From an uncultured Acidobacteriota bacterium (GTDB taxonomy: Bacteria; Acidobacteriota; Blastocatellia; Pyrinomonadales; Pyrinomonadaceae), in the NCBI GenBank assembly GCA_946480545.1, contig CAMLKY010000191.1, positions 1 to 5,288 on the forward strand: a DNA stretch of 5,288 nucleotides, read 5' to 3'. Both the position numbers and the translations under genes were made by a program. Each line of letters begins with the position of its first letter. Position 1 is the stretch's first letter. Positions 2,912 to 4,386 of this stretch are shown piece by piece. The notes beneath the pieces were generated by a model that was not told where the DNA came from, made no database searches, and saw only the letters and a list, made by a program, of their open reading frames with translations.

Positions 2912-2982
2912 TTCGTGCATTTCGTGCACTTCGTGTGTTTCGTGGTTCGATTTGATATCGGTCAGAACCACGAAACACACGA
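2912..2982. repeat. Hairpin repeat element 3 (TTCGTGNNN nonamers) overlapping a gene start
   Basis: Four tandem nonamers, TTCGTGCAT, TTCGTGCAC, TTCGTGTGT and TTCGTGGTT, fill 2912-2947. The last two lie in a perfect 18-bp inverted repeat: TCGTGTGTTTCGTGGTTC at 2931-2948 pairs with 2965-2982 around a 16-nt loop. Read through, the nonamers encode repeated F-V-(H/C) tripeptides on the plus strand and H-E repeats on the minus strand. The element fills the gap after the Schlafen-like gene and overlaps the start of the membrane-protein gene. No T-run follows the stem, so it is not a typical terminator. Confidence 0.88.
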
Positions 2983-4285
2983 TAACGCTTCGAGCGCTAC
3001 CGCGAAACAATGGAATCAACTCTACCCCTGGCTCGCCCTTGCGACGGGCGTCGTTTATTTCTTCTCTAATCCCAAACCGCAAAGTTATTACGACTACACG
3101 TTTCGCGTCGCCGCCAACATTCTGGGCGGGCACATTGCTTTTACGGAAAAGCAGCCGTCGTGGCTGAACGAGTTCGTGCCGTTCGAGGGATTCTGGTATT
3201 CGGTGTTTCCACTCGGCAGCGTAGTCTCGATGATGCCCTTCGCGTTATTCAAGGCCGTCGGGCTCATCAATGACATGCCGGCGGCCCTGGTCGCGGGGTT
3301 ATGCGCCGGCGTGAGCTGTATGTTTCTCTTTCTGATCGGACGGCGGTATGAGATCGAGCGAACACGGCTGATCGTTATGACTCTCGGCATTCTGTTTGGT
3401 ACGTGGATGTGGACGAACCTGACAATGGCCGGTGCGTGGCAGCTCGCACTTGGGTTCGCGATGGTGGGCGAGCTGGGGGCGATCTATTTCACGATCTACG
3501 ATCGCCGACCGCTGATAGCCGGGATCTTCTTTGCACTCGCCTTCGGAAACCGAACCGAGGTGCTGCTGACGGCACCTATTTTCTTTTGGCTGTTGAACCG
3601 CGGAGGCACGGAGACGCAGAGGAAACCTGATGAGGCAAGTACTCCACCGGGCAAACGCTCGAAGGCAAAGGAGGAAAAAGGCTCGAGGGATTCTTCTCCG
3701 CGTCTCGGCGTCTCGGCGGTCAACATCCGTGCCGTCGCTTTGTTCTGCATCGTCCCGTTCATCCTTGGCGTGACAACGCTCGTGTACAACTACCTCCGCT
3801 TTCATTCGTTCAGCGACTTCGGTTATGCACGCATCCCCGGCGTGCTCGATGAACCCTGGTACAACCATGGCATCTTTTCTTACCACTACATCCCGCGCCA
3901 GATATGGGAGATGTTGTGGCGTCCCTGGGAAACGCGCGCGACGTTCCCGTATCTCGTGCCGAACCCGTTCAGCAGCTCGATTTTGTGGAGCAGCCCGTTC
4001 GTTCTCTTCGCTCTCCGAACCGGAGCACGTGACAAGGCGTTGAAGTGGGCATCGTGGCTCGCGATCCTTGTGCTTTGTATCTTGCTGTGGATGCACGGGA
4101 ACTCCGGGGGATGGCAGTTCGGTTATCGGTACGCGATGGTCTGTTTGCCTTGGCTGTTCGTGATCATGCTCGAAACTTCGCCAAAAAAGATCACCCCGCT
4201 CGAATGGGCCGCGTATGGATTCTCATTCGCCGCAAATGTATATGCGACGTGGCTGTTCCACTGGACAGAGTATCTAAAATCCTGA
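2915..4285 (+). CDS. Polytopic membrane protein, probable GT-C (family 39-like) glycosyltransferase
   Basis: The product (up to 456 residues) has about 10-11 hydrophobic spans, roughly at 36-51, 95-118, 120-141, 151-168, 172-193, 199-227, 271-292, 355-368, 376-393, 403-419 and 430-448. GT-C glycosyltransferases use lipid-phosphate sugars at the outer membrane face. Supporting features are an Asp in the first long outer loop (YYDYTFRVA, D60), FWYSVFPLGSVVSMMPFAL (93-111), which resembles the YYSxxPPGxxLL stretch of such enzymes, AFGNRTEVLL (209-218), and SGGWQFGYRYAMVCLPWL (397-414), like GGWxFGxRYLxPxLP. Acceptor and donor are unknown. The start is uncertain: an in-frame stop at 2909-2911 and no ATG before the first span leave only GTG codons at 2915, 2924, 2933 or 2942, all inside repeat element 3. 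Residues about 227-272 come from repeat element 4 and form a charged, low-complexity loop between two spans. Downstream, 104 bp separate it from the exporter gene. Confidence 0.72.
   Translation: MHFVHFVCFVVRFDIGQNHETHDNASSATAKQWNQLYPWLALATGVVYFFSNPKPQSYYDYTFRVAANILGGHIAFTEKQPSWLNEFVPFEGFWYSVFPLGSVVSMMPFALFKAVGLINDMPAALVAGLCAGVSCMFLFLIGRRYEIERTRLIVMTLGILFGTWMWTNLTMAGAWQLALGFAMVGELGAIYFTIYDRRPLIAGIFFALAFGNRTEVLLTAPIFFWLLNRGGTETQRKPDEASTPPGKRSKAKEEKGSRDSSPRLGVSAVNIRAVALFCIVPFILGVTTLVYNYLRFHSFSDFGYARIPGVLDEPWYNHGIFSYHYIPRQIWEMLWRPWETRATFPYLVPNPFSSSILWSSPFVLFALRTGARDKALKWASWLAILVLCILLWMHGNSGGWQFGYRYAMVCLPWLFVIMLETSPKKITPLEWAAYGFSFAANVYATWLFHWTEYLKS
3591..3725. repeat. Hairpin repeat element 4 (CGGAGNCN octamers) inserted in frame within a coding sequence
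   Basis: Arms 3591-3623 and 3694-3725 form an imperfect inverted repeat: TGTTGA pairs exactly with TCAACA (3720-3725), one base bulges (3597), then 20 of 26 positions pair, around a 70-nt loop. The left arm runs as octamers CGGAGGCA, CGGAGACG, CAGAGGAA. The right arm read in reverse gives CCGAGACG, CCGAGACG, CGGAGAAG. The span is 135 bp, an exact multiple of three, and lies wholly inside the membrane-protein gene without a stop. It encodes about 45 polar residues rich in Lys, Arg, Glu, Ser and Pro between two hydrophobic segments, unlike the rest of that protein. Confidence 0.78.
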
Positions 4286-4305
4286 ACCCCGATCGAACTT
4301 ATCGT

Positions 4306-4386
4306 TTATCAGTTATTCCGGGGGCGGCTTGCTATAATCCAATATCCGGAATAACTGATAAGTGATAGCTGATAACTGATATCTGA
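4306..4386. repeat. Hairpin repeat element 5 (CTGATAA heptamers)
   Basis: A perfect 16-bp inverted repeat, TTATCAGTTATTCCGG at 4306-4321 against 4346-4361, flanks a 24-nt loop. The right side continues as tandem heptamers from 4355: CTGATAA, GTGATAG, CTGATAA, CTGATAT, then CTGA, ending three bases before the exporter's ATG. The AT-rich repeat contrasts with the GC-richer genes around it. The stem is followed by mixed sequence, not a T-run, so a terminator is unlikely. The loop carries a strong promoter-like motif. Confidence 0.87.
4330..4338 (+). promoter_or_regulatory. Extended -10 promoter motif in the loop of repeat element 5, upstream of the MFS gene
   Basis: TGCTATAAT is a perfect extended -10 box (TGnTATAAT). 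No good -35 hexamer is found 15-19 bp upstream, but extended -10 promoters can work without one. Transcription would start near 4345, at the right arm of the hairpin, leaving a leader of about 45 nt made mostly of CTGATAA heptamers before the ATG at 4390. Confidence 0.55.

Follow-up and report, generated by a model that had tools for sequence, protein, structure and literature searches.

What is already known of repeat DNA that is read in frame within bacterial protein genes? The Rickettsia palindromic elements (RPEs) are about 150 bp long, dispersed, and often in frame within unrelated protein genes (relevant parts of PMC10969869 and PMC6649704). REPs of the GTAG/CGTC type lie within ORFs in a wide range of species, one such ORF being uvrA in Opitutus terrae and in Thioalkalivibrio, and in Xanthomonas recB different REPs occupy about the same site (intragenic examples in PMC3733652). 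In Beggiatoaceae, cyanobacteria, and Bacteroidetes, TAACTGA heptamers have been described as direct repeats; a role in translation has been suggested for them, and some copies overlap ORFs (MacGregor 2015, sections of PMC4679880). In-frame palindromes are thus already known, as RPEs and intragenic REPs; the new part here is the inverted arms at GxxExxY genes. The sequence that we analysed, referred to as the window, is a 5,288-nucleotide stretch of contig CAMLKY010000191.1 from an uncultured Acidobacteriota bacterium of the Pyrinomonadaceae, and it carries a palindromic element with octamer arms in frame within a membrane-protein gene. Elements of this type are reminiscent of RPEs in being palindromic, dispersed (in relatives), and in frame within a protein gene. 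A first-pass annotation had drawn this parallel from the window alone, and the recurrence of the family in relatives' genomes makes the comparison appear apt. Unlike RPEs, the octamer-type system lies in Acidobacteriota, has arms of iterated octamers, shares one loop with several other classes, and has gene-bearing relatives; to our knowledge the sequences of the octamer element and of RPEs are unrelated. What sets the window element apart from the intragenic GTAG/CGTC REPs is the iterated build of its arms and a companion gene; among the classes found in that loop, PPA is REP-like. The octamer system resembles REPIN/RAYT systems (PMC3116915) in having short dispersed inverted pairs and a gene-bearing partner with the same repeat at its ends, but its companion is GxxExxY (PF13366) and not a Y1 transposase.

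The reading that we favour, with a probability of about 0.68, is that a gene-less, MITE-like octamer element inserted in frame in a loop of the host protein, and that copies bearing a GxxExxY gene are its likely autonomous partners. The host ORF (2915-4285, forward strand, 456 codons, true start uncertain) encodes a polytopic membrane protein that is weakly GT-C glycosyltransferase-like. Its neighbours are a gene at 1589-2881 that matched nothing in NCBIfam and an MFS transporter gene. The protein matched no Pfam family, and in NCBIfam one glycosyltransferase model was hit, at a score far below its cut-off. The best eight Foldseek matches are glycosyltransferases, which we take to have GT-C folds, with probabilities of 0.87-1.00, yet E values of 0.01 or worse. 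Alignments of 121 proteins, and of 152 rows once loci were added, indicate good conservation outside the element loop and the N-terminus. In the AlphaFold model, confident helices at residues 214-228 and 268-296 enclose ten-residue blocks scoring 47-60 over residues 231-270; this low confidence is due in part to a gappy alignment there, since gaps alone lower confidence. A second palindrome, of TTCGTGCAC-type nonamer units without an assigned strand (2912-2982), lies at the 5' end of the host gene, and the repeat search places its inverted repeat at 2931-2982. It contains the candidate GTG starts of the gene, and its right arm, read in frame, would form the N-terminus.

The octamer element itself occupies 3597-3720 on the forward strand (124 bp) and corresponds in frame to residues 228-269; it was delimited by arm pattern, folding, and the recurrence of its family in the genome G001. 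Its arms, at 3597-3621 (forward) and 3696-3720 (reverse), are each 25 bp long and made of three octamer units, and they face each other across a 74-bp spacer (3622-3695, read on the forward strand) that encodes charged residues and is not octameric. Complementarity between the arms is imperfect. Both arms match the octamer pattern, for which 0.00 matches are expected in 200 shuffles, and because the pattern was derived from the window itself, independent support comes from its recurrence in other genomes. As a single strand the element folds into a long imperfect hairpin that is moderately better than shuffled sequence (z of -2.50 for 3585-3730 and -2.25 for 3594-3723, with 4 of 200 shuffles equally good in each case). 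None of 100 loop shuffles attained the gapless inverted-repeat score of the real loop; it was equalled or exceeded in 2 of 62 other windows of the host gene, probably on account of the second palindrome at its 5' end. A repeat finder run on the window did not list the octamer element, presumably because of the arm mismatches, and Rfam gave nothing in the window at gathering scores. The host ORF is open throughout, and no stop interrupts it across the element. All six frames of the octamer array are free of stop codons; the unit is devoid of T on one strand and of A on the other.

The first-pass annotation therefore recognised a palindromic repeat element that is truly present in the membrane-protein gene, leaves the frame unbroken, and lies between two hydrophobic spans, seen here as a low-confidence stretch between two modelled helices. 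Its extent needs revision, from 135 bp at 3591-3725 to the 124 bp given above; the proposed build of octamers is true of the two arms and untrue of the spacer; and the charged residues added number about 41 (residues 228-269) rather than about 45. Judged by comparison, the octamer element and its in-frame reading are solid features of the sequence, and the segment that it encodes would be translated in the cell.

Is the octamer element a member of a dispersed family? The arm pattern was sought in 25 related genomes carrying the same gene, with two mismatches allowed and the reversed pattern as control, and was found in 20 of them. G001, the nearest genome with the host gene that was examined (ortholog 75% identical), has 49 matches (25 forward, 24 reverse) and none to the control. 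Many are inverted pairs; there are 19 such pairs, spanning 67-129 bp, a range that includes the 124 bp of the window element. The control gave no match in 20 of the 25 genomes and one each in G007, G016, G020, and G025; in G023 it gave 14 against 26 octamer matches. In a phylum-wide draw of 396 genomes the pattern is patchy, occurring in 33 at one mismatch. Dispersal as inverted pairs in relatives is a REP/REPIN-type feature. The alikeness of arms was also considered as a sign of template switching and was set aside as weak: mates in G001 are only slightly closer to each other than when the arms are re-dealt, and 34 of 2000 re-dealings scored as high.

The octamer element is one of several palindromes in the window. 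The repeat search placed three more between genes, none with an assigned strand: one of CTTTGCGG-type octamers at 1360-1442, an A+T-rich one at 1284-1350, and one with TAACTGA-like heptamer arms at 4300-4386. The last has the same heptamer as the repeats of MacGregor 2015, but as palindrome arms instead of direct repeats. In 388.5 kb of G001 there are 120 inverted repeats, against none in shuffled sequence, at a density biased upward because all stretches but one, that of the host ortholog, were picked around octamer matches. With genes predicted by a simple purpose-written script, as also in the position-chosen stretches below, 80 of the 120 lie between genes, 22 across a gene end, and 18 within genes, and several of the 18, near gene starts, may be untranslated. 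Genes of G001 that host inserts include those for NuoL, UvrA, an M1 aminopeptidase, and a DUF512 radical-SAM protein; the M1 aminopeptidase gene (L072:16673-19999) has five palindromic inserts, in frame. Across 400 kb chosen by position in ten other genomes, 2 of 31 inverted repeats fall within predicted genes; copies within genes are therefore rare away from such loops.

What does the same loop hold in orthologs? A repeat motif was found there in 102 of 152 ortholog rows. By peptide motifs selected by eye, 39 rows are octamer, 28 PPA/AGG hairpin, 11 GGAGAAGG units, 8 AATCCGC heptamers, 8 heptamers of other kinds (by themselves or mixed), and 8 combinations of classes, among which L004, P0056, and P0067 have a nested appearance. 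P0070 and P0045 are probably partly mislabelled, the rows include the same gene twice in places (for example, P0120/L002 and P0061/P0064), and about a dozen of the 50 rows without a recognised motif resemble decayed elements. For octamer loops the data are mostly peptides alone: DNA covers 31 ortholog loci, and L004 is the one among them labelled octamer. CCAAAGA repeat counts were discarded because the reversed control pattern was also frequent, the pattern being nearly symmetric. A tree from which the loop was excluded requires at least 31 changes of class among the 94 labelled rows (58 were left out, 50 without motif and 8 of mixed class), against a shuffled mean of 47.3, and none of 200 shuffles was as low. 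This was a quick tree in which 48 of 149 inner branches are weakly supported; well supported branches alone force 8 changes for the octamer class, 9 for PPA, and 6 for GGAGAAGG.

Contrary to the first-pass expectation that close relatives should lack exactly this segment, 48 of the 59 best matches (P0002-P0060, 68-83% identity) hold an element motif there, and several of the other 11 have loops resembling decayed elements. No exact empty site of the host loop was found at high identity among the orthologs examined; motif-free loops of 20-26 residues occur only at about 55-64% identity (L017-L022, L025). The same annotation had supposed that distant orthologs would not share a conserved loop of similar length. 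This holds in that loop length ranges from 20 to 76 residues, with 49 in the window, and in that an alignment of 33 sequences marked no conserved column there; it holds less well for the P0076 group, whose lysine-rich loops are of similar length without a recognised element. That many element-free loops are lysine-rich would fit the idea that the loop is kept for a function, a positively charged segment being selected and the elements serving merely as raw material. The very short loops and the lack of a marked column speak against it, and we consider it decidedly unlikely. The wide variation of loop length could also suggest that the loop is simply permissive, with repeats growing in place by slippage or template switching and each class arising locally without any mobile element. 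Tandem units within the arms fit slippage, and some loops have tandem heptamers without an inverted repeat (L013, L014, L016). The loop inverted repeat beats all other windows of the gene in L001, L002, L003, L005, L009, L010, L043, L047, and L049; in 23 of 32 loops tested (22 loci and the window) it is absent, or matched or exceeded elsewhere in the gene, so not every such loop is a palindrome today. Against growth in place, the octamer and PPA classes are dispersed in related genomes with many inverted pairs, and genome-wide families are not what independent local growth would produce.

A second loop, in UvrA, bears on the same question. The UvrA insert of G001 falls at gaps of the best-matching solved UvrA, in what is, across 120 homologs, the sole length-variable block once the termini and one 4-column block are set aside. 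DNA was examined for the 30 best-scoring of 119 genomes: the loop is short in 21 (20-23 residues in the stretch) and filled in nine (32-56 residues), and the short state is present in genomes 75-82% identical to the query. The nine fillings, named by eye, sort into four families: PPA elements in L077, L081, L089, and L102, an ACAGGCT hairpin in L078, L082, and L094, a heptamer palindrome in L076, and a GGAACGCC hairpin in L101. By eye, the 30 genomes showed no recognisable target-site duplication. Loops that are either filled or short, with PPA copies among the fillings, argue against repeats that grew where they stand.

What might move the octamer element? Flanking arms were examined at GxxExxY (PF13366), 23S-IVP (PF05635), and Y1_Tnp genes. 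Inverted arms that span the gene, at a score of 14 or more, were found in 74 of 97 GxxExxY loci and for 4 of 297 control genes of 75-260 residues from 11 genomes; the four control positives are themselves one GxxExxY, one 23S-IVP, one DUF559, and one ribosomal L6 gene. The DUF559 gene (L246:17952-18425) lies between two 27-bp inverted repeats that are identical and belong to a further, different element family; the gene had been a candidate RAYT, which was ruled out. The threshold was fixed on the first GxxExxY set, and the flank was later widened from 250 to 320 bases, controls included. The first two sets comprise 70 loci from 79 profile matches, nine being left out, and the third, from further genomes of the phylum, 28 of 30 loci, two having already been counted. 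Arms were found in 22 of 29 loci of the first set after relocation by motif, which did not locate L164 (17 of 27 before relocation, with several ORFs wrong), in 30 of 40 of the second set by domain coordinates (28 of 34 on relocation by motif), and in 22 of 28 of the third. In the remaining 23 of the 97 loci no spanning arms reach the threshold. The arms are mostly iterated 8-10-mers, although some, as in L290, are not iterated. The IVP genes (L176-L205), whose ORFs were not relocated by motif, have spanning arms in 15 of 28 loci, mostly heptameric.

Octamer arms proper, at up to three mismatches, flank the GxxExxY gene on both sides in L164, L169, L212, and L230. At least one such octamer arm occurs in 7 of 70 GxxExxY and 2 of 40 Y1 loci, and in none of 30 IVP loci, 30 UvrA loci, or 20 position-chosen 20-kb stretches. 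In L212 the GxxExxY gene (1209-1574) lies wholly between its arms, one of which differs from the right arm of the window element at 1 of 25 bases. The window element is thus MITE-like in the usual sense, being short and gene-less with ends that match those of a gene-bearing element. All of the palindromes, octamers included, could instead be REP/REPIN elements moved by RAYT (Y1) transposases, and Y1_Tnp genes were indeed present in all 20 genomes searched. PPA copies flank them, as read by eye, in L138, L139, and L144, so the PPA class, itself one of the loop classes, behaves like a REPIN of a RAYT. The octamer arms tell otherwise: of the two Y1 loci that have any, L130 has a pair well away from the Y1 ORF and L115 a single arm, copies on both sides of the Y1_Tnp gene occur in none of the 40, and it is GxxExxY genes that octamer arms flank instead. 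A RAYT origin of the octamers is therefore very improbable. Because the octamer family and its 8-10-mer cousins are found at both ends of GxxExxY genes, gene-bearing copies are likely autonomous partners. The association with GxxExxY genes is strong, and on this view the GxxExxY protein would move the octamer element.

Comparison of the L212 site across genomes gives a view of whole units. The L212 flank was matched in 56 of 119 genomes, and 12 loci (L294-L305) were compared. G019 and G087 have octamer arms and a GxxExxY gene at this junction. No gene is present in G020, whose flank is 91% identical, or in G018, G017, G021, G003, and G080, and the junctions of G018 and G080 may hold repeat remnants. 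G081 has a gene-less palindrome, and G072, G086, and G011 have heptamer arms around an apparent IVP gene, identified by profile in G011 and by eye in the other two. Depending on the relative, this one intergenic junction is either empty of genes or holds a gene-less palindrome, a GxxExxY unit, or an IVP unit. Among the 12 loci a target-site duplication could not be made out by eye, and the extra DNA of G019 exceeds the arm-to-arm length. Comparison of sequences, then, establishes two things: arms flank GxxExxY genes, and at one intergenic site close relatives differ in whether a gene-bearing copy is present. The presence or absence of whole units at one site is difficult to reconcile with repeats that grew in place, which we regard as unlikely, and the window segment probably arose by insertion.

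The insertion reading can be put together as follows. A gene-less palindromic element with iterated-octamer arms would enter, in frame, the loop that separates helix 214-228 from helix 268-296, and would be translated as a disordered charged segment. Insertions there would survive because the octamer array offers no stop codon and the loop can accommodate a different length or sequence, and in relatives the loop would have been refilled many times by several element families. The in-frame reading, the recurrence of the family in relatives, and the several element classes in the loop are established by sequence comparison, and the loop appears to have served many times as a landing site at which repeat DNA turns into protein. 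A wider proposal, to which we would give somewhat less than even odds, is that GxxExxY genes with iterated 8-10-mer arms make up an undescribed class of bacterial mobile element with a PD-(D/E)XK-like nuclease at its core, as we take GxxExxY proteins to be PD-(D/E)XK-like. The window would then hold a gene-less copy turned protein, and 23S-IVP genes, whose products are four-helix bundles and whose arms are heptameric, would form a parallel class. A search of mainly open-licence papers turned up neither the octamer family nor palindromic arms at GxxExxY genes; searches on GxxExxY returned the family name and no described function, and open-licence papers on DUF559 with repeats included no title or abstract about these elements.

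If the insertion reading is right, the octamer loops would be a second natural system beside Rickettsia where repeat DNA repeatedly becomes protein, and two loops, those of the host protein and of UvrA, would let the gain and exchange of elements be read across relatives. The octamer hairpins would gain a testable partner and the GxxExxY proteins a possible role.
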